This document shows, one piece after another, positions 15,874 through 31,369 of a stretch of DNA of 32,356 nucleotides. The stretch comes from a virus. The notes beneath the pieces are model-generated. The model did not search any database. It was not told the DNA's origin and saw only the letters and a program-made list of their open reading frames with translations. The DNA is taken from the IMG/VR virus record IMGVR_UViG_3300050821_006232, positions 1 to 32,356 of that record; one strand, given 5' to 3'. Every line of letters starts with the position of its first letter. Within the stretch, counting starts at the first letter, position 1. The position numbers and the translations under genes are program-made.

Positions 15874-16006
15874 AGGCGTTTTTAGCGCGGCGGCGGAGCG
15901 CGCCGGGAAGAGTACCTCGGAATTTGCCAAGGAACATGAGCACTCGCCGGGGAAAATAGGTAAGAGAGCCAGGCTTGCGGAGGCCTTCGCTAAGGCAAGA
16001 CATTGA
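15812..16006 (+). CDS. Small basic phage protein (64 aa)
   Basis: ATG 15812 has GGAGG five bases upstream, better than the longer in-frame start at 15758. The sequence (DRWMGKVSKQIKSSGHEGVF, then AGKSTSEFAKEHEHSPGKIG and AFAKARH) resembles a frequent small phage protein family with the pattern W-x-K/V-helix, G-x-F/L, K-rich tail. It is thought to lie near head genes; its role is not known. It overlaps the previous gene by 62 bases. Confidence 0.6.
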   Translation: MATKDRWMGKVSKQIKSSGHEGVFSAAAERAGKSTSEFAKEHEHSPGKIGKRARLAEAFAKARH

Positions 16007-16012
16007 GATAGA

Positions 16013-16582
16013 ATGCCCACCACTATGGGGACAAAATGGGTTGTGAAGGATCTGCGTGGGCTGACCTTCGGTCGACTTAAAATTGTCGATCAGTATCCTG
16101 TGCGTCATAGGAATGGGAACGCACGATGGGTTGTCGAATGCGCCTGCGGAACGATAAAGATCGTTCGCTCATGCCACTTACTCCGCGGAACGACCACGAG
16201 TTGCGGTTGCTGGAACGAAGAGAAAAGACACCTAAAGGCTTTTTCGCGCGCGACGTTCGTGGAGCACATGTTCACGAGGTATCATAACGGTGCAAAGGCA
16301 AGAGATGTACGATGGGATTTGACGCGCGAACAAGTGGATGAACTGCTTTCCGGAAACTGTTTTTATTGCGGTGTTGAACCGCTTTTCAGAAGCAAAATGC
16401 GTGGCAGCATAGGGGCTTTTTGCTTCAACGGAATCGACCGCATGGTCAATGCCTTGGGGTACTTCCCTGAAAACTGCGTATCATGCTGCGGAATCTGTAA
16501 CGTTGCCAAGCAAGACATGTCATTACATCAATTTGCGACGTGGGTTGAACGCCTGAAAGCAAATTTCCGCGTCGGAGGTTAA
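16013..16582 (+). CDS. HNH homing endonuclease
   Basis: 189 residues (or 185 from the second ATG at 16025). The N-terminal module (LRGLTFGRLKIVDQYPVRHR, WVVECACGTIKIVRS, TTSCGC) is the zinc-bearing DNA-binding domain seen in phage HNH homing enzymes. The nuclease core has CFYCG at about 116, NGIDRM near 139 and CCGICNVAK near 158. No ribosome site precedes it; TAGAAT at 16009 could be a -10 element. It is inserted directly before the portal gene (TAATG overlap), typical of a free-standing homing endonuclease in a late-gene junction. Confidence 0.85.
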   Translation: MPTTMGTKWVVKDLRGLTFGRLKIVDQYPVRHRNGNARWVVECACGTIKIVRSCHLLRGTTTSCGCWNEEKRHLKAFSRATFVEHMFTRYHNGAKARDVRWDLTREQVDELLSGNCFYCGVEPLFRSKMRGSIGAFCFNGIDRMVNALGYFPENCVSCCGICNVAKQDMSLHQFATWVERLKANFRVGG

Positions 16583-19182
16583 TGGCGACAAGCGTACTGG
16601 ACCTGAACGCGGAAGAAACTCAGCCTCAAGGCGTAGAGGCCGAGGACGATGCTCCGGAATATAGAATTGGCGTTCTGGCTGGGTGCGAGTATTCGCCAGA
16701 GCCTAATGCCAAGCTGAATGAACTTCAAAAAAATGCCTTCAAGGATTTATGCACGAAGGCCTGTAAGCGCGACCTGCCCGCAAGACTCATAGAAATTATA
16801 CAATCGTGGGAAAGTGCGTTGTTTTACCGCGGATTCCAGTTCCTAATTCCACTACGCGGGGGTGGCTGGCAGATTCCCGGCGAGAGTACCGGCTACGGCC
16901 CGTCGATGCAGATGGACCTCGCGCTGCTCCCCACCAACATTTACTCCGCACAAGCGCAGATCCTCATTTCGACGCTTACCAGAGCTATTCCGACGGTGCG
17001 TTTCGAGCCTCAAGACGGCGCCAACGACGCGCAAATTACCGCTGCCGAATCAGCCGAGAAGTTCATCAAGGTCATCGAGCGCAACAATGACTTGATGATG
17101 GTGCAAAACGACGCTGCGCGGTATCTCTACACCGACGGGCGCGCGATTTATTGGTCACGATTCGAGAAAGATGGCCAACGCTTCGGATGGGAAGAGGACG
17201 ATCGTCCTGACAACATCGTTCCCGAGAACGAACCGGCGGAATTGCCAGCGGAAAGCGGCCAAGGCGGCATTCCGGGCATGGCGCCGGAGGGTGAAGAGGG
17301 TCCGGAAGTCGAAACTCCCGCTGCCGCAGCCCCGGGCGCGCCGCCAGAAGGCTCGCCAGCCGAAGAACAGGGCGAAACTCCCGAGCAAGAGGCACAAGAA
17401 CAGCCCACCAAGCAGCCGCGAACGCCTCGCGGCCAAGAAGTACGCACCGCACACGGTAAACTCGAATTCAAACTCATTCCCATGAGTGCGAATGACCTCC
17501 AAGGGTGCGATGCGGTGCAGTATGAGACCGAAGTGGACGTCTCCCGCGCCAAAGGCATGTTCCCGTGGGCTGCCGACGACATCAAAGGTGGCTCCATGGG
17601 CCAAAGCGAGGGAGAAATTGCTCGCTTGGCCAGGCAAAACGTGAAATTGGGCATGCAAAGTACCTACATCACGTCTGATTCCGTTGCCGACGACGTGACC
17701 ATCCAAAGAACGTGGTTTCGGCCGAGCTACTTCACGCATATTGCCGACAAACCGACCCGTACAGAGATTATTTCCATGTTTCCCGACGGCGCGCTGGTGG
17801 TTTATGCAGGAGAGACCTTTTGTTATGCACGAAACGAGTCGATGGAGGCGTCCCTCGCGCTAATTCAGGCATTTTCGGGCGATGGGCAGAATCGCAATGC
17901 GCTTGGCACGTCGATGATGCCGATTCAGAAGCGCGTCAACAACTGGCTCGACCTTTTGAACGATTCTTTCATCCGCACCGTGCCAAAAAAGTGGATGGAC
18001 AGCAAAGCGTTCGACGTAAACGCGCTCAAGAAGCAAACCAACATTCCCGGCGACATTGGAAGCTTCAAACGGCAGCCTGGCGTGCAAGTTTCCGAGCTTT
18101 GCTGGGTGGAACCGCAGGTAACCGTCTCTCCGACGCTCGCCATGTTCGTGAAAGAGTATATCGGGCCGATTTCGGAGTTAATGAGCGGCGCGTACCCGGC
18201 TTTGGCGGGATCCAGCGACCTGGGCGGCAACGATACCAAGGGCGGGATCGAGATTCAGCGGAATCAAGCGCTTGGACGGCTAGGGCCGACTTGGCACTCG
18301 ATTCAGAACGCGGAAGCGACCTCCATGCGGCAATTAGTGATGTGGGGCGCGAAGTGCCGCGATAAATCCATCAACGAACGCATCCCCGGCGGCCGGCCAG
18401 TAGAATTGGAAGTCAATGACCTGCGCGCGAACATCCTCTGCTTCGCGGAGACGGATGAATCGTTCCCTGAGAACCATGCCGACAAGAAAGCGCAACTCAT
18501 CGAGGTATTCGAAGACTCTGCGAAGACCCCGCAGCTTCAGGAAGTGCTTTATAACGCTTCGAACCTCGAATTCCTGCAAAGTGTGTACGGCCTGAGTGAC
18601 CTCTATATTCCGCAGGTAGCCAGCCGGAACAAGCAACTGGGTGAGTTTGAGATTCTGCTCAAGAGCGCGCCGGTGCCGAATCCGAAGGTGATGCAAGCGA
18701 ACAGTGTCGTCCAACAGCTAAAAGTAATGGGTGCGGACCCGCAGAAGTTGCAGATGCTCGAGCAACAAATCGCGCAGATGCCGCCTGAGATTTGTTCGAT
18801 TCAGATTGACTCGCAGGTGGAGGATTCCGAAACCGAAGCGGCAACGTGCTGGCAGTGGCTCACGTCACCGGAGGGCCGCAAATCGAAGCGGCTTAATGCA
18901 CAGGGCTACAACAACGTGCGGCTCCATTTCCTTGACCACACGCAGGATGCCATGCAGAAAAAGGCTGCCGCTGGACCCGACAAGGCGAAGCCGCCAGCGG
19001 AGAGCATCAACATCAAGGATTTGCCGACCAGTGGCGCGATTCAACTCGCGAAGAAGGGCGGCATCGACCTTACGCCCGCGGACTACGCGGAGCAGGAAGC
19101 TAAAGAAGCGGCACTCAAGACCGCGAAGTCGGAACCAGCGCCAGCATTGGCACCGGCGCATCCGGCCGCGCCTCCAGGCTAA
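16582..19182 (+). CDS. Portal protein
   Basis: 866 residues, coupled to the upstream HNH gene by TAATG. The N-terminal core (ALLPTNIYSAQAQILISTLT, then AAESAEKFIKVIERNNDLMM and DGRAIYW) and the later segments (GTSMMPIQKRVNNWLDLLND, GGIEIQRNQALGRLGPTW) resemble the large portals of P22-like podoviruses. It would form the dodecameric ring through which terminase drives DNA. A Pro/Glu/Ala-rich insert at about residues 213-289 interrupts the core, and the C-terminal 120 residues are Lys/Glu-rich and helical (barrel region). The identification rests on order, size and sequence character. Confidence 0.82.
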   Translation: MATSVLDLNAEETQPQGVEAEDDAPEYRIGVLAGCEYSPEPNAKLNELQKNAFKDLCTKACKRDLPARLIEIIQSWESALFYRGFQFLIPLRGGGWQIPGESTGYGPSMQMDLALLPTNIYSAQAQILISTLTRAIPTVRFEPQDGANDAQITAAESAEKFIKVIERNNDLMMVQNDAARYLYTDGRAIYWSRFEKDGQRFGWEEDDRPDNIVPENEPAELPAESGQGGIPGMAPEGEEGPEVETPAAAAPGAPPEGSPAEEQGETPEQEAQEQPTKQPRTPRGQEVRTAHGKLEFKLIPMSANDLQGCDAVQYETEVDVSRAKGMFPWAADDIKGGSMGQSEGEIARLARQNVKLGMQSTYITSDSVADDVTIQRTWFRPSYFTHIADKPTRTEIISMFPDGALVVYAGETFCYARNESMEASLALIQAFSGDGQNRNALGTSMMPIQKRVNNWLDLLNDSFIRTVPKKWMDSKAFDVNALKKQTNIPGDIGSFKRQPGVQVSELCWVEPQVTVSPTLAMFVKEYIGPISELMSGAYPALAGSSDLGGNDTKGGIEIQRNQALGRLGPTWHSIQNAEATSMRQLVMWGAKCRDKSINERIPGGRPVELEVNDLRANILCFAETDESFPENHADKKAQLIEVFEDSAKTPQLQEVLYNASNLEFLQSVYGLSDLYIPQVASRNKQLGEFEILLKSAPVPNPKVMQANSVVQQLKVMGADPQKLQMLEQQIAQMPPEICSIQIDSQVEDSETEAATCWQWLTSPEGRKSKRLNAQGYNNVRLHFLDHTQDAMQKKAAAGPDKAKPPAESINIKDLPTSGAIQLAKKGGIDLTPADYAEQEAKEAALKTAKSEPAPALAPAHPAAPPG

Positions 19183-19288: not shown

Positions 19289-20689
19289 ATGATGGATGAC
19301 GTAGCAATTCCGGGGATGGGTGGAGATGCGGGCGCAGGTGGCGGAGACGGCGGCGGCGGGGCAGCGGTAGCAGAACCTGAAGTTACTCCTGGGGCAGAAG
19401 GTACGCCAGCGCCAGAAGGGGCACCGGCAGAAGGTGGAGAACCAACTCCGGAAGGTGGAGAACCTAAGCCGGAAACTCCTCCGGAAGAGACAGATCCAGA
19501 AGCAGGGTTACACGAAGACAGTCGCATCGTTGACGTAAAGACCCGCCAGCAGATTGCGGAACTTCGCAAGACCAATCCAGCGCTGGCCAAGGTGGCCAGC
19601 GACGCCATTTTCGGCCGCCAGGCGGTAATGAAGGAGTTTCCCGAAGCGAAGTCTATCGGGGACGTCCTGAAGTCGGTTCGCGCGCAACGTGCCACACTGG
19701 AAGCCGTCGGCGGTGAAGAGGGCATTACTAAACTCAACGAGGAAGTCACCGACTACCGCAAAGAGATTGACCAGTTTGCCGCCGGGGACCGCGAACTACC
19801 GGCGCAACTCCTCGAAGCCAATCCCGACGGGTTCGTAAAGACCGTCGACAACTCCCTGCAACTTCTGCTCGAAAAGTACGGTGCTGAGCCTGGCGGGCGC
19901 TTCGATCAGGTGTTAGCGGTGCCGTTTGCGCAGCGAATTAATGACGCAGGTATGCCACAAGCTATTGCCGCGCTAATCGACCACGTTAAGGCTGGAGACG
20001 GGGAAGCGGCCTACGCAAAATTGCAGCTAATAGATAAGTGGCTAAAGAACGTCGACGCCTACGCCAAGAAAGTTGGGGAAGGCCGGGCGGCGGCGCCAGA
20101 CCCGCGCGAACAGAAACTCTCCGAGCGCGAACAAAACATCGAACGCGCGGAAACCGAGCGCTACGAGGCCAGCATCGGGGCCGACGTCAACAAGCTGAAT
20201 AACTCTGCGCTTCAACCCTTGCTCGACGGCGTCTTTAAGCAGATTCCCGAACTCAAGGCCGAAGGCAAGCAGCGCTTCACGCACATGGTTCAATCCGAAG
20301 TGTGGAAGGCCATGAAGGCCGACAAGGTGTTTCAGCGCAACGCCCGTGCAGTCATGGCCAAGAAGGATCCCGCAGCTTCGGCCAGATTCATCAACGCCAA
20401 ATTCGCGGAACTGCTCAATGGTCCCGACGGCATTTTCATCAAAGTGCGCAACGAGATGTATCCCAACATCGGGCGCGCCAAAAAGCCCGCGATCGTGCCG
20501 AAGCCAGCCGCGGCGAACGGCCAGCCAGCGAAGGTGGCCTATGCTGGCGGCAGACCGAAATTCCAAGATGTAAGCTGGGAGTCCGAAGGCGGAAAGACCA
20601 GCGACATCATGTGGATTCGCGGCGAAGCCATCCTCAAAGATGGCAAGCAAATCAAATTCGATCCCAATTCCCCGCCGAATCGGTTATAG
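19289..20689 (+). CDS. Putative capsid scaffold protein
   Basis: 466 residues, ATG ATG start with a GGGGGA leader. The first 75 residues are a Gly/Ala/Pro/Glu low-complexity tail. Then follows a charged, largely helical body (TRQQIAELRKTNPALAKVAS; EQKLSEREQNIERAETERYE) and a basic C-terminus. Position between portal and capsid protein, acidic disordered N-terminus and helical core are those of P22-type scaffolding proteins. No protease motif is visible. The role is inferred from position and composition. Confidence 0.68.
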   Translation: MMDDVAIPGMGGDAGAGGGDGGGGAAVAEPEVTPGAEGTPAPEGAPAEGGEPTPEGGEPKPETPPEETDPEAGLHEDSRIVDVKTRQQIAELRKTNPALAKVASDAIFGRQAVMKEFPEAKSIGDVLKSVRAQRATLEAVGGEEGITKLNEEVTDYRKEIDQFAAGDRELPAQLLEANPDGFVKTVDNSLQLLLEKYGAEPGGRFDQVLAVPFAQRINDAGMPQAIAALIDHVKAGDGEAAYAKLQLIDKWLKNVDAYAKKVGEGRAAAPDPREQKLSEREQNIERAETERYEASIGADVNKLNNSALQPLLDGVFKQIPELKAEGKQRFTHMVQSEVWKAMKADKVFQRNARAVMAKKDPAASARFINAKFAELLNGPDGIFIKVRNEMYPNIGRAKKPAIVPKPAAANGQPAKVAYAGGRPKFQDVSWESEGGKTSDIMWIRGEAILKDGKQIKFDPNSPPNRL

Positions 20690-20791: not shown

Positions 20792-20868
20792 CGCGGAGTA
20801 GCTTAGGTCGGGAAAGCGCGAGCCTCATTAGCTCGAAAACACCGGTTCAAATCCGGTCTCCGCAACCA
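20792..20868 (+). tRNA. tRNA with CAT anticodon, initiator-like acceptor end
   Basis: Complete cloverleaf with encoded CCA. Acceptor CGCGGAG/CTCCGCA has a C1-A72 mismatch, the hallmark of bacterial initiator tRNA. The D arm is GCTT/AAGC with loop AGGTCGGGA. The anticodon stem is CGAGC/GCTCG with loop CTCATTA (anticodon 20826-20828), and the T arm is ACCGG/CCGGT with loop TTCAAAT. The three G:C pairs typical of initiator anticodon stems are missing, the D stem has C11:G24 as in elongators, and position 37 is T instead of a purine. It is therefore a hybrid; tRNA-Ile(CAT) is also possible. Confidence 0.85.
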
Positions 20869-20890: not shown

Positions 20891-21055
20891 ATGGGAAGTC
20901 GCCACGGTTTCACGATCGGTGCTTTTGTTTTCGTGCTCGGGCTGGCATTATTTTTCATCGCCGCGGTTGCTTGGCCGGTTCCGGTAGACCCGTACCGCAA
21001 CAAGATGATTGCCGGCGGCCTGTTCTGCGTGTGGCTATCGACGGTACTTCCCTAA
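20891..21055 (+). CDS. Small membrane protein (54 aa)
   Basis: ATG 20891 has GGAGG eight bases upstream. It has a strong span (FTIGAFVFVLGLALFFIAAV) and a weaker second one (MIAGGLFCVWLSTVLP) separated by a short polar loop PVDPYRNK. It lies between the tRNA and the methyltransferase, in the accessory island. No family is recognised. It is below the length of many gene callers. Confidence 0.55.
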   Translation: MGSRHGFTIGAFVFVLGLALFFIAAVAWPVPVDPYRNKMIAGGLFCVWLSTVLP

Positions 21056-21058
21056 ACC

Positions 21059-21607
21059 GTGCCACAACTCGCGCCTATCGCCGCAAAATACGGTTCCGAC
21101 AAGTGTTCATGGCACTCCTACGGGCGCGTCTACGACAATCTTTTCATCGAAGGCAAGACCATCCGTAAGGTGTTGGAAATCGGCATCGGCTACAAAGGCC
21201 TGCTCGCGGAGTCCTATCCCAACGCAGCTAGTCTTTTTATGTGGGAAGAGTATTTTCCCGACGCCGAAATCTACGGGCTGGACATCCGAGAGGATGCACT
21301 GATAAACGAGGGGCGGATTCATTCACACGTCTGTGACCAAAGCAGCGTATCGTCTTTGCTCGCGGCGCGCCAAGCGGTTGGCGGCGGATTCGATTTGATC
21401 GTGGACGATGGGTCACATAAGCCGGAACATCAAATCCTTTCTGCCGCGGTGTTGTGGCCCTGCGTCGCGCCGGGTGGACGCTACGTGATCGAGGACGTGT
21501 GGGATGCTGCGGAAGTCGCGCCGTTCCTGCCCTTCGCGCACGAAATTATCGAATTAAAAATTGGTCGCGTGCGGGATGACCGCTTGATTGTTTCGAAGTT
21601 GAGTTAG
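21059..21607 (+). CDS. SAM-dependent methyltransferase
   Basis: 182 residues, GTG start three bases after the previous gene. Opening YGSDKCSWHSYGRVYDNLF, SAM motif I VLEIGIG at about 38-44, an acidic strand-end IYGLDIRED, and FDLIVDDGSHKPEHQ at about 111-125 match the small class-I methyltransferases of the macrocin/mycinamicin O-methyltransferase type, which act on sugars, with Asp-Asp and His at the metal/active site. It is followed by a glycosyltransferase-sulfotransferase fusion, so a glycan substrate is likely. It is somewhat short for the family but has all core motifs. Confidence 0.75.
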   Translation: MPQLAPIAAKYGSDKCSWHSYGRVYDNLFIEGKTIRKVLEIGIGYKGLLAESYPNAASLFMWEEYFPDAEIYGLDIREDALINEGRIHSHVCDQSSVSSLLAARQAVGGGFDLIVDDGSHKPEHQILSAAVLWPCVAPGGRYVIEDVWDAAEVAPFLPFAHEIIELKIGRVRDDRLIVSKLS

Positions 21608-21620
21608 GATATGCCCCACC

Positions 21621-22955
21621 ATGACCATCGGATTCTGTACCACGTGCAAGGGCCGAGCCCAACACATCAAAGCCACGCTTCCACGCAACCTCGCTGACAA
21701 TCCTTCCGCAAAATTCATTCTGGTCGATTACAACAGCCCCGACGATCTAGCGCCCTACCTTGCCGAGAATCACTCCTTGGACATGGCAAGCGGCCGGCTG
21801 GTGGTCTATTCCTACACGCGGTCTGGACCGTTCCGGATGGCACACGCGAAAAACCTTGCTCACCGGCTAGCGATTGGCGAGGGCGCGGACGTGCTTGTGA
21901 ACCTCGATGCCGACAATCTGACCGGCGCGGGCTTTGCGGACTACGTTTCGGATATGTTTTGGCGGGCGGCAACCGACCACGCCATGTTCAGCTTCCCGAA
22001 TATCTACTTGTGGGCGCGCATGATCCAAGGGCAGATGAAACGCGGGGTAAGCGGACGCATCGCCATGGCCGCGAAGGCCTTCCTGCTCTCTGGCGGCTAC
22101 GACGAACGGTTTTCCGATTGGGGACCAGACGACAAGGATATGAACGTGCGCCTCGAGCGGCTCGGCTTCCTGCCGGTCGAAATTGATCGCCAATACCTCG
22201 ACGCCATCCATCACAGGGACAAGATTCGGTTCAAAGAATACCCGCACGCCAGGCCAGGGCCGGGAGTCACGTCACACGAAGGCTATGTTCCGAATGACTG
22301 CACGATCGCCAACTTCGGCAACTTCGGCTGCGGCATGGTCTTCCGCAACTTCGATTTCGGGAAGCCGATCATCTTGCGGCCGCTCCCGACGCGAATCTTC
22401 GGCATCGGCATGCAGAAAACGGCCACTACCTCGCTGGATGCGGCCCTGAAGATACTCGGCTTCGATTCCGCGCACTGGCTTGACGGTAAGTGGGCGGTCG
22501 CGATTCTGAAAGAGATGCGCGCCAAGGGCCGCTCCGAAACCCTCGAAAAGCACTATGCCCTGTGCGACCTGCCGATCGCCATTCTATTCAAAGAACTGGA
22601 CCGCGCGTATCCGGGATCGCGATTCATCCTCACGGTGCGCGATGAAGTAGATTGGCTGGTGAGTGCGCGGGACCACTGGAGTTACGAGCACAACACCCAC
22701 CGGCCAGACTGGGACAAGTGGCCGGCAGCGGACGTCATCCATCGCGCGACCTACGGACAAAAACAGTTCGACGCGGCTGTTTTTCTGGCAAGATACCGCC
22801 AACACAACGCGGAAGTGAAAGAATACTTTCGCAATCGGCCTGACGATCTGTTAGTGATGGACATGAGCAAAGGCGCAGGCTGGCAGGAATTATGCCCGTT
22901 TGTGGAAAGGCCGGAGCCCCCCATTCGGTATCCGAGGAAATATGCAGCGTACTAA
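21621..22955 (+). CDS. Glycosyltransferase-sulfotransferase fusion protein
   Basis: 444 residues. Residues 1-235 form a GT-A glycosyltransferase: N-terminal TIGFCTTCKGRAQHIKATLP, metal-binding DAD in VNLDADN at about 92-98, and the acceptor loop GGYDERFSDWGPDDKDMNVR of the galactosyltransferase C-type. From about 258 a sulfotransferase follows: the PAPS 5'-phosphosulfate loop GIGMQKTATTSL, then the 3'-phosphate motif FILTVRDEVDWLVSARDHW at about 334. One enzyme would add a sugar and sulfate. TAGGAT lies before the ATG, with no clear ribosome site. The fusion and its place in a capsid operon are unusual. Confidence 0.82.
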   Translation: MTIGFCTTCKGRAQHIKATLPRNLADNPSAKFILVDYNSPDDLAPYLAENHSLDMASGRLVVYSYTRSGPFRMAHAKNLAHRLAIGEGADVLVNLDADNLTGAGFADYVSDMFWRAATDHAMFSFPNIYLWARMIQGQMKRGVSGRIAMAAKAFLLSGGYDERFSDWGPDDKDMNVRLERLGFLPVEIDRQYLDAIHHRDKIRFKEYPHARPGPGVTSHEGYVPNDCTIANFGNFGCGMVFRNFDFGKPIILRPLPTRIFGIGMQKTATTSLDAALKILGFDSAHWLDGKWAVAILKEMRAKGRSETLEKHYALCDLPIAILFKELDRAYPGSRFILTVRDEVDWLVSARDHWSYEHNTHRPDWDKWPAADVIHRATYGQKQFDAAVFLARYRQHNAEVKEYFRNRPDDLLVMDMSKGAGWQELCPFVERPEPPIRYPRKYAAY

Positions 22956-23996: not shown

Positions 23997-25340
23997 TTGA
24001 GGTGCGTAATCGCAGCCAATCCAGTCGCAGAAGCGGCCGTAGAAGGCGTTGAATTAGAAGCGTTTGCAAAGGGAATTCCTGATCTTGTCTATAAAGGCAA
24101 GACCATCTACAACTTCTTCAAGAAACACTCCAAAACGTATCCCACCGCAGTGACCACGCAAGCTGGCGGCGTTTCCCGTCCAGCGTTCCGCATTCCCGTC
24201 CGCATGCAATCCGGCTGCGCGATCTTCCAGGCCACCGGCAACGGCGATGCTCTTGGGCGCGGCACCGGTTCCCTGTGGGTTTCGGGCGACCTTTCACCGG
24301 TCGGGCTGTTTGCCGGCTGCGAAATTACCTACCTCGCTCGCATGGCCACGCAGGGTCCGAAGCGGTCCTTAATTTCACTCCGAGCAGAGGAATTAAAGAA
24401 TTCCTTCAATTCCTTTATGCAAGGCGTGGACGCGCAGTTCTTGTCGGATGGCGCCGGCTCCGTGCTCCAGATTCCCGCCACGGCGGTCATCACCACCGGC
24501 GGCACCGGCAACCAGACGTCGATCATTTCGGGGCTTGGCGGCCAGGCGAACCAACTGCAGGAACAGCAAGTGGTGCAGTTCTTCCTCGCCGAAGGTGGCG
24601 CACCGCGCGCAGGCACCGCAACCGTGTCGTACGTGGACGGCGCTTCGGACATCGTCTACTTCTCTACGGCTCTGCCTGCCGGCACCGCTGCCGGGGACTT
24701 CATCGTGATTCAGGGTTCCACCGGCGCGCTCAATTCCGGCGTGCAGGGTATCTACGCCTATCAAGTTGCCGGAAACACCGGCACGGTGCTGAACCTGAAC
24801 AAAGCGACTTATCCCGGCCAACTATCCACGCCGAACATCAACAAGGGCGGCCAGCCAATCAACACCACCGATGCTTATAAGGCGCAAATCCTTATCGGCC
24901 GCGGACTCGGTGCGGAGAATGAGGCGGTCACCGATTTCGTGTGGATCTGTGGTCCCGACCAGCAACTTGCCGTCACTCAGCTTTACACCGGCGTGCTGAC
25001 GCAGAACTACGTTCCACCCGGCGATAAGGCTTTGGACATGACCAAAAAGAACATGGTCACCACCTACGGCGACCGTCCGCTGAATATTTCCTATTCGGCG
25101 CGGCAGGGACGCCTCGACGCAGTCTGTCCCGAGTGCTGGGGGATCGCGGAAACGGTAGAGCCGAGCTTGTATGACTTCGGAGACGGCGTCACAACGATGC
25201 CTATCCCCGATTTCGCGGGGCAGGGTTCTTACCTGACGTCTTCGATCTTCTTCTACAACTGCTTCTTGAATCTCTACAATTCCAACATGAAAGCAGGGGT
25301 CTACATTTCTTCCGCTGCAGTGCCGAGCGTGAACAGCTAA
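23997..25340 (+). CDS. Major capsid protein
   Basis: 447 residues from TTG 23997. A long soluble protein with a helical N-arm (VEGVELEAFAKGIPDLVYKG followed by IYNFFKKHSKTYPT), a central part rich in Gly/Ser/Thr and beta strands (GSLWVSGDLSPVGLFAGCEI, FSTALPAGTAAGDFIVIQG) and a C-terminal domain. Position after portal and scaffold, length and composition suit an HK97-fold capsid protein. The start is doubtful: TTG has no ribosome site. The better-placed GAGGTG (23999-24004) is followed at four bases by ATC 24009, just before AANPVAEAAV. Confidence 0.83.
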   Translation: MRCVIAANPVAEAAVEGVELEAFAKGIPDLVYKGKTIYNFFKKHSKTYPTAVTTQAGGVSRPAFRIPVRMQSGCAIFQATGNGDALGRGTGSLWVSGDLSPVGLFAGCEITYLARMATQGPKRSLISLRAEELKNSFNSFMQGVDAQFLSDGAGSVLQIPATAVITTGGTGNQTSIISGLGGQANQLQEQQVVQFFLAEGGAPRAGTATVSYVDGASDIVYFSTALPAGTAAGDFIVIQGSTGALNSGVQGIYAYQVAGNTGTVLNLNKATYPGQLSTPNINKGGQPINTTDAYKAQILIGRGLGAENEAVTDFVWICGPDQQLAVTQLYTGVLTQNYVPPGDKALDMTKKNMVTTYGDRPLNISYSARQGRLDAVCPECWGIAETVEPSLYDFGDGVTTMPIPDFAGQGSYLTSSIFFYNCFLNLYNSNMKAGVYISSAAVPSVNS

Positions 25341-29324: not shown

Positions 29325-29846
29325 ATGGAGCACCTTTATTCAATAGTTATATGCAGGGATTGCTCAAAAGAGTGGACCATGCGGCGCGACGCCATAAAGA
29401 CGTGGAAAGGTCGCTGCCATTCGTGCGCCTCAATCAAGCTGGCAAAGTCCCCTAGGATTAAAAGATTGCGGAGTCAGAACGCCAAAATGCAAGTCCTTCG
29501 GCAAGGCGGTGTACCAAACGCCAGGAAGTTCGACGGTGTTAATAACTCCATGGAAAAACATCCCCGATGGAAGGGCGGTGTCACCCCGGAGAATCAGAGG
29601 CAACGGTCTTCGGCCTCGGCGATCGAATGGCGCATAGCCGTATTTGCGAGGGACGAATTCACTTGCGTGGTCTGTGGACAGGTCGGCGGTAAGCTTCACG
29701 CGCACCACATCAAGAGTTGGGCCGAATTCCCAGAACTAAGATTCGAGGTCGGTAACGGCGTGACGGCGTGTAAGAAATGCCACAAAGAAATACTTCACCA
29801 AGGTAGTTTTCATCGAAAGCTTTTTGCCGTCCAGGGAGTCGCATAA
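29325..29846 (+). CDS. HNH homing endonuclease
   Basis: 173 residues, ATG behind AGGA. The N-terminus has a zinc finger (CRDCSKEWTMRRDAIKTWKG, CHSC) and a Lys/Arg-rich linker with the NSMEKHPRWKGG module frequent in homing enzymes. The HNH core is complete: FARDEFTCVVCGQVGGKLHA, HHIK and ACKKCHKE. Free-standing, inserted between a fibre gene and the first of two paralogues. There is no sign of a flanking intron. Confidence 0.88.
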   Translation: MEHLYSIVICRDCSKEWTMRRDAIKTWKGRCHSCASIKLAKSPRIKRLRSQNAKMQVLRQGGVPNARKFDGVNNSMEKHPRWKGGVTPENQRQRSSASAIEWRIAVFARDEFTCVVCGQVGGKLHAHHIKSWAEFPELRFEVGNGVTACKKCHKEILHQGSFHRKLFAVQGVA

Positions 29847-30763: not shown

Positions 30764-31369
30764 ATGTTTATCTACGCGATAACCAATGACGTAAACGAGA
30801 AGGCTTACATCGGACTCTATTCCGGCCAGGAATTGCGCATCCGATGGATTAGGCATAAGTCCTCGGCTCGTCACAACTCCCGACTCGCCATCCATCGCGC
30901 CATGCGGAAGTATGGGATTGAAAAGTTCCACATCACCTGCATCTGGTCGGGACATTTCCAATGCAGCAAGAAAGAAGCCCTCGAAAAACTCGGGGCGCTG
31001 GAGAGGTATTACATTCGATGCTTTCAGACCAAAGGACCGCTTGGCTACAACTCAGCCGACGGTGGGACCGTTAACGCAGGATTTAAACACACAGAAGAGA
31101 CGAAAGCAAAACTGCGAGCCAAGGTTGTAAGTGCGGAAAGTCGCGCCAAGATGAGCGCGATTCACAAGGGCAAGACTATCTCCGAGGCTCACAAGCAAGC
31201 GAACCGGGAAAAGTTGAAGGGCAACAAGCATTTGCTGGGGTATTTCCCGTCCCCCGAAACTAGGAAAAAAATTAGCGCCGCTGGCATGGGCCGCGTTCAA
31301 TCACAAGCCACCCGCGCAAAGAGAAGCGCTACTATAAAAGCACTACTAGCCAAGGTGACTAATCAATAA
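30764..31369 (+). CDS. GIY-YIG homing endonuclease with NUMOD3-type repeats
   Basis: 201 residues. The catalytic module is at the start: IYAI (3-6) and YIGLYSG (15-21), with Arg residues after it (RIRWIRHK) and a conserved Glu in ALERYYIRCF. The C-terminal half has three short basic DNA-binding motifs of NUMOD3 type: GFKHTEETKAKLRAK, GKTISEAHKQANREKL and FPSPETRKKISAAGMGR. It is free-standing and likely has its own promoter. It sits between paralogue B and the last structural gene. Confidence 0.9.
   Translation: MFIYAITNDVNEKAYIGLYSGQELRIRWIRHKSSARHNSRLAIHRAMRKYGIEKFHITCIWSGHFQCSKKEALEKLGALERYYIRCFQTKGPLGYNSADGGTVNAGFKHTEETKAKLRAKVVSAESRAKMSAIHKGKTISEAHKQANREKLKGNKHLLGYFPSPETRKKISAAGMGRVQSQATRAKRSATIKALLAKVTNQ

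Follow-up and report, generated by a model that had tools for sequence, protein, structure and literature searches.

Gene organization of the locus

The window, as we call the whole stretch of DNA analysed, is a virus record of 32,356 bases, both ends of which fall within open reading frames. Analysis of the window revealed two open reading frames on the same (+) strand, at positions 21059-21607 and 21621-22955, separated by 13 nt. The first starts with GTG and encodes a predicted SAM methyltransferase of 182 aa that carries KVLEIGIG and VDDGSH. The second, the main feature of the locus, is a single stop-free frame of 444 aa containing NLDADN, GIGMQKTATTSL and VRDEVDWLVSARDH, and is assigned as a glycosyltransferase (GT)-sulfotransferase fusion from the reading frame, a match to PF17784, an AlphaFold (AF2) model and 52 viral homologues. 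Both frames and their motifs were recovered as they had been described in an initial annotation of this DNA. The matches to PF17784 (E=1.2e-31) and MycE (3ssm, E=2.5e-21), the 52 homologues in IMG/VR and the PF17784 match of all 42 aligned copies argue that the two genes are not a product of chance.

The methyltransferase start is preceded by 3 nt and the stop codon of a gene coding for a 54-aa protein (20891-21055, +) with two hydrophobic stretches and a GGAGG ribosome-binding site, homologues of which were found in the same gap of the sister phages L026, L032 and L036. A tRNA-Met(CAT) gene was identified by ARAGORN at 20792-20868 (+), and sister phages L021 and L023 likewise carry tRNA-Met in this gap.

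The gap is bordered upstream by a 466-aa protein (19289-20689, +), scaffold-like by its position and conserved in sister phages at 31-45%, and downstream by a 447-aa protein (23997-25340, +), major-capsid-like by order and conservation (73-84%). An 866-aa protein at 16582-19182 (+) is portal-like by size and order (54-65%). The initial annotation had placed the two genes inside a capsid operon. TerS (PF03592, 2.6e-25) and TerL (PF04466, 2e-7) genes are located upstream of them and the genes on either side, which are on the same strand (866, 466 and 447 aa), keep their order in sister phages, which mostly agrees with that placement; on the other hand, profile searches gave no match for the portal-, scaffold- and major-capsid-like proteins, which are named solely by their size, gene order and conservation, and the model of the 447-aa fold (pLDDT 36) lends its capsid identity no support. 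No match to a sigma-70-like promoter was found on the coding strand between 19200 and 24100, using the consensus only. Further downstream, the window carries an HNH endonuclease (PF01844, 9e-7; 29325-29846) and a GIY-YIG/NUMOD3 homing endonuclease (9e-10; 30764-31369).

Domains and conserved residues of the fusion

The N-terminal half, residues 1 to about 245 (21621-22355, +), is predicted to adopt the GT-A fold of a GT2/GT7-like enzyme. Comparison of the AF2 model with solved structures gave Z 17.9 and rmsd 3.0 over 216 residues to 8vh7, and the matches with Z about 17-18 comprised heparosan synthase 2, K4 chondroitin polymerase and WrtF. The DxD metal motif is present as D96-A-D98 (21906-21914, +) in all 42 copies. 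Further sites of this half are DD 170-171 and His198, and the residues D96, A97, D98, N99, G158-Y160, D171 and H198 were invariant among the 42 aligned fusion copies. The window protein scored below the curated cut-offs of PF10111 (22.5 vs 27.3) and PF02709 (21.1 vs 23), while 36 and 35 of the 42 copies, respectively, matched these families at E up to 0.001.

The C-terminal half, residues 258-444 (22392-22952, +), was assigned to the PAPS-dependent sulfotransferases by fold and by PF17784 (Sulfotransfer_4; residues 258-440, 110.7 bits against a cut-off of 22.8), to which every one of the 42 copies was matched. The 5'-phosphosulfate loop FGIGMQKTATTSL lies at residues 260-272 (22398-22436, +), and G263, K266, T267, T269, S271 and L272 of this GxxKTxTxS loop did not vary in any copy. 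The D316-L-P motif (22566-22574, +) aligns with TDLP of the schistosome sulfotransferases; D316, which we take to be the catalytic Asp, and P318 were invariant, as were H285-W286 and T338. The 3'-phosphate motif RDEVDWLVS, residues 340-348 (22638-22664, +), was nearly so, R340 being retained in 41, W345 in 42 and S348 in 39 of the 42 copies.

The C-terminal half aligned with SgdX2 (8y9p) and Cpz8 (9kf2) with Z 19.8 and rmsd 2.9-3.1 over 182-183 residues, and also matched Schistosoma sulfotransferases, Z being about 19-20 across the solved neighbours. The AF2 model of the whole fusion, built with 42 homologues, had pLDDT 91.3 and pTM 0.90. The single-chain GT-sulfotransferase proposed in the initial annotation is thus borne out by PF17784, by fold matches for both halves and by one uninterrupted frame. 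That proposal was to fall if profile searches put the C-terminal half outside the sulfotransferase fold, or if the PAPS-binding residues were lost in close homologues; the half was found within this fold and the residues were conserved throughout the 42 copies. A dead domain would probably drift; catalytic and cofactor residues that never vary are the trace to be expected of two working active sites. From sequence and model together, a GT-A half for sugar transfer followed by a PAPS sulfotransferase half is the nearly certain domain chemistry.

The nearest solved sulfotransferases, namely Cpz8 (caprazamycin), SgdX2 and the oxamniquine-activating enzymes, would be consistent with an auxiliary metabolic gene whose product acts on a host lipid or small molecule. 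A GT with a DAD motif and a polysaccharide-synthase fold points instead to a sugar acceptor, the gene is carried by phages and no biosynthetic cluster is in view, and we regard a small-molecule role as improbable.

The methyltransferase

The 182-aa METHYLTRANSFERASE was matched to the catalytic domains of MycE (3ssm) and of the demethylmacrocin O-methyltransferase 8ia9 (E=2.6e-16), DDGSH and IEDVW being aligned; in MycE these motifs contain the metal (Mg) ligands as well as the catalytic His. A match was also obtained with phrog_21658 (E=2.6e-16). At 182 aa the protein is shorter than the two-domain architecture of about 400 aa found in MycE and TylE. Phage relatives of the methyltransferase adjoin GT genes in prophage McProf and in the glycan gene cluster of cyanophage S-SCSM1. 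Since its kin are macrolide-sugar O-methyltransferases and its phage relatives are GT-adjacent, a sugar can fairly be taken as its probable substrate, and the sugar-type assignment of the initial annotation, which these nearest solved and phage relatives favour, is retained.

The methyltransferase was missing from all other fusion loci, and L001 has the fusion without it, hence the gene is an extra of the window phage. The methyltransferase is thus no standing partner of the fusion, and the methylated and sulfated glycan of the earlier proposal would at most be specific to the window phage.

Distribution and origin of the fusion

IMG/VR was scanned with the window protein, then with its alignment with the first relative, L001 (71% identity), and then with the 42-row alignment. 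The last scan yielded 61 loci, some of them near copies (L059/L066/L084 and L078/L079), and 52 matched nearly all 444 residues. The search for the same fusion in other viral genomes, recommended in the initial annotation, was thus positive. When whole records were searched, the fusion was found in 48 of 48, being uninterrupted and near full length in 46; it was broken in frame in G034 and cut by the contig end in G041. An artefact of assembly or frame is ruled out by these 46 records.

A phrog_2-type terminase large subunit was present in 29 of the 48 fusion records, and the protein families around the fusions included terminase, portal, helicase, polymerase and tail proteins, which indicates that the carriers are tailed phages. 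They have many backbones: among the fusion loci, the portal-like protein of the window was common to L001, L059, L066 and L084 only. Two terminase matches in these records read through stop codons, through one TAG in G035 (C1:10451-12022, the record of L081) and through two TGA in G011 (C1:13714-14757, the record of L054), which may reflect stop-codon reassignment, an intein or intron, or a broken gene.

Bacterial and archaeal genome contigs yielded 19 loci, 17 of which carried the GT half only while two, L097 and L098, both MAG contigs, carried the fusion. The L097 contig is phage, with a terminase and with neighbours common to the viral contig L062; no terminase, portal or capsid family was among the 25 families listed for 28 proteins of the L098 contig. 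Beyond these two seeds the fusion was absent from 780 bacterial genomes (385 + 395, from the class and phylum of L097 and L098), in which single sulfotransferase or GT halves did occur. The fusion is thus essentially viral and almost absent from bacteria. That the gene is an ordinary bacterial one caught up in viral contigs is ruled out by the TerL genes in 29 of 48 records and by the 780 bacterial genomes with two seeds only.

INPHARED phages contained no full-length fusion, and one GT-half match was found (MT837976). Two BFVD models, A0A6J5QD79 (412 aa) and A0A3G4ZUI3 (Edafosvirus, 880 aa), aligned over more than 400 columns at an elevated rmsd; they are possible GT-sulfotransferases of a distant kind. 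A bacterial open reading frame, L132:1309-2787 (reverse-complement coordinates), has, as read from the sequence, a Sulfotransfer_4-like domain and behind it a stretch similar to inositol monophosphatase/PAP phosphatase, and may be a sulfotransferase-PAP phosphatase fusion. The bacterial Sulfotransfer_4-like proteins at L129:790-2094 (reverse-complement coordinates) and L130:679-2103 have a long repeat-like N-terminal extension, so this domain is also fused to other things elsewhere.

In the phylogenetic trees of both halves, constructed with a quick method, a single branch separated all the fusions from the other sequences, with SH-aLRT values of 99 (GT) and 91 (sulfotransferase). As judged from these trees, the fusion arose once, and its two halves stayed joined as it spread. 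The linkage is thus old and retained, which favours a coupled activity.

The variable region in sister phages

Relatives of the portal-like protein were found at 40 loci and belong to one uncultured phage lineage, whose capsid-like and portal-like proteins had no match in INPHARED and whose TerL had distant matches there (about 27%). In 26 of these phages, counting the window, the scaffold-like and capsid-like genes were 0.24 to 5.1 kb apart, and the contents of the gap varied. Apart from tRNAs, it held proteins of a 150-200-aa family in 14 sister phages, as well as putative homing endonucleases and a DNA methyltransferase-like protein, labels read from the sequence. Neither fusion carrier has in its gap a member of the 150-200-aa family (e.g. 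L012:14572-15192), which may represent an Ig-like decoration protein of the head. The gap of L012 contains two tRNAs (15896-15971 and 16036-16110), called tRNA-Pyl, whose anticodon is CTA and which are possible amber suppressors.

The fusion occupied the gap in 2 of the 26 phages, namely the window and L027, whose contig is that of L001, and so the particle can evidently do without it. The fusion genes of the window and L027 were sisters, or nearly so, in both half-trees; on the contrary, the portal-like protein rejected the two as a clade (AU p=0.0002). The same slot was therefore probably reached by transfer of the gene between phages, although recombination of the portal-like gene would explain the conflict as well. 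The fusion is a mobile accessory gene of tailed phages.

Neighbouring genes

No fixed partner genes were found across the fusion loci. The commonest neighbour was a phrog_19005-type protein (13 loci), which is absent next to the copy in the window. This protein, 260-330 aa long and located on either side of the fusion (e.g. L001:10067-10927, with E=2.8e-33 to phrog_19005; L050:7150-7926; L062:1422-2306), has a conserved GDC..AA.GHA motif of papain/C39-like appearance. At L058, sugar-pathway enzymes were among the neighbours, namely a DegT aminotransferase and an epimerase/dehydratase.

In the 27 records carrying both genes, the fusion lay within 4 kb of TerL in 8, against 5.7 expected by chance (P=0.19), so that no enrichment of the fusion near TerL was seen. 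The tie of the fusion to capsid genes is consequently not borne out as a general feature and a virion role is, in general, unreadable from position. PAPS reductase was found in 4 of the 48 fusion records, indicating that as a rule these phages lack PAPS handling of their own.

Genes resembling thymidylate synthase, by way of which hydroxymethylated bases are usually made, were likewise found in 4 of the 48 records, many of which are fragments. TET/JBP was found in none of the 48, a count to be read with a control that was silent too and with the window and many records being fragments. Both results weigh against a hypermodification of phage DNA, by which the GT and the sulfotransferase would act on a hydroxylated base and hide the genome from restriction. 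We consider this most unlikely, even though base-modification systems with GT and sulfotransferase are stated in an underground estuary virome study to have been reported in phages (PMC10829341).

Proposed function

The GT-A domain would transfer a sugar from a nucleotide-sugar, with the metal held by the DAD motif, and the C-terminal domain would put sulfate from PAPS, assumed to be supplied by the host, on a hydroxyl, most simply that of the sugar just added. We infer that both sites are active and, from the fusion of the halves, that they act in sequence on one acceptor. Expression is probably late, as the gene is on the strand of the head genes and behind that of a sugar-type O-methyltransferase. 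The GT half has its fold neighbours among enzymes that synthesize or decorate polysaccharide, and the product is probably a sulfated glycan or glycoconjugate. The presence of the fusion in about fifty environmental phages, and almost never in bacteria, suggests that phages probably make sulfated sugars, which most likely serve to decorate the phage particle itself or the surface of the host.

The main rival to a glycan on the virion is a host-surface polysaccharide or lipid that is glycosylated and sulfated by the fusion, with changed receptors as the outcome (superinfection exclusion, or release from debris). The resemblance of the GT half to GTs that polymerize or decorate capsule and O-antigen (heparosan synthase, K4CP, WrtF) is consistent with such a target, as is a mobile accessory gene found at many genome places and untied to TerL, and GT clusters of jumbo cyanophages are thought to modify the outer polysaccharide of the host (PMC7824862). 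However, the position among head genes and on their strand suggests a late timing, when a change of receptors would be least helpful; the fusion has no membrane segment, and no polymerase or flippase was seen nearby. A host-surface target is accordingly possible but, in our estimate, doubtful.

The virion is favoured as the target by the head-gene strand, by the lack of a sigma-70-like promoter match and by the parallel with actinobacteriophages, in whose GT and O-methyltransferase cassettes the glycan decorates virion proteins. By this analogy virion proteins would most likely be decorated here as well, an assignment we hold at slightly less than even. The reading as a whole, a bifunctional, glycan-making mobile accessory enzyme whose product would decorate the virion, stands about evenly balanced. 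The computation shows the domain identities, the conserved active-site residues, the single fusion origin, the virus-borne spread and the position in a variable slot. We tentatively propose, with less confidence, that a widespread group of tailed phages builds sulfated glycans on its own virions, perhaps methylated in the window phage, by means of one once-arisen two-domain enzyme that moves as cargo.

Conservation of the active-site residues in about fifty phages, together with a fusion almost free of bacterial carriers, argues that glycosylation coupled to sulfation is under selection in phages. Within the literature searched, such a system, if the proposal is true, would be the first in bacteriophages to sulfate the virion. 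A single protein makes it possible to test what a phage sulfates, and why. Sulfation of virion glycans would alter the charge of the particle, how it adsorbs to soil and host, and antibody recognition, and the fusion enzyme is a possible tool for making sulfated glycans.

Comparison with known systems

The initial annotation had also held that the fusion looks new. NCBIfam contained no model for the fusion or for either half, and neither a GT-sulfotransferase fusion nor a sulfated virion glycan was found in the literature searched, which was open-access only; the combination thus still appears new, but phage sulfotransferases as such do not. Those reported earlier, from OM43-phage-type contigs and cyanophages, belong to another Pfam family (PF13469), with their function called unclear and no GT fusion mentioned (PMC10580990), and a sulfotransferase is listed as an auxiliary gene of glacier viruses (PMC8290583). 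The domains and the idea of a phage glycan cassette are known; what is new is the single-chain combination and its wide, conserved viral spread.

The GT half shares the GT-A fold and the DxD motif with heparosan synthase 2, K4 chondroitin polymerase and WrtF, at 14-18% identity, and the fusion has one GT domain whereas the heparosan and chondroitin polymerases have two. Stand-alone bacterial GTs (L099-L112, mainly alphaproteobacteria) show 32-40% identity over residues ~1-205; they are without the sulfotransferase half and all fall outside the fusion clade. Cpz8, SgdX2 and the schistosome oxamniquine sulfotransferases have the fold, the PAPS loop, the Asp in DLP and the 3'-phosphate motif in common with the fusion, but are stand-alone enzymes with natural-product or drug substrates, while the domain described here stands behind a GT and is phage-carried. 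The 182-aa protein has the catalytic domain with DDGSH and ED ligands of the MycE/TylE-type sugar O-methyltransferases. It aligns only with chain residues 182-328 of 419 in 3ssm, and the N-terminal domain of MycE and the stretch after residue 328 are absent from it.

A parallel in gene context is found in the virion glycosylation cassettes of actinobacteriophages. In cluster O mycobacteriophages, three GTs behind an O-methyltransferase are reported to act on proteins of the capsid and the tail tube (PMC11600133), and a second source describes capsid glycans of Che8 and the shielding from antibodies that capsid glycans provide (PMC11256854). A phage GT adjoining a sugar-type O-methyltransferase, as in these cassettes (PMC11600133, PMC11256854), was also found in the window, where the two genes are adjacent (21059-21607 and 21621-22955). 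The cassettes comprise several genes, with no mention of a sulfotransferase in the passages cited, whereas in the window phage the GT and the sulfotransferase are joined in one fusion.
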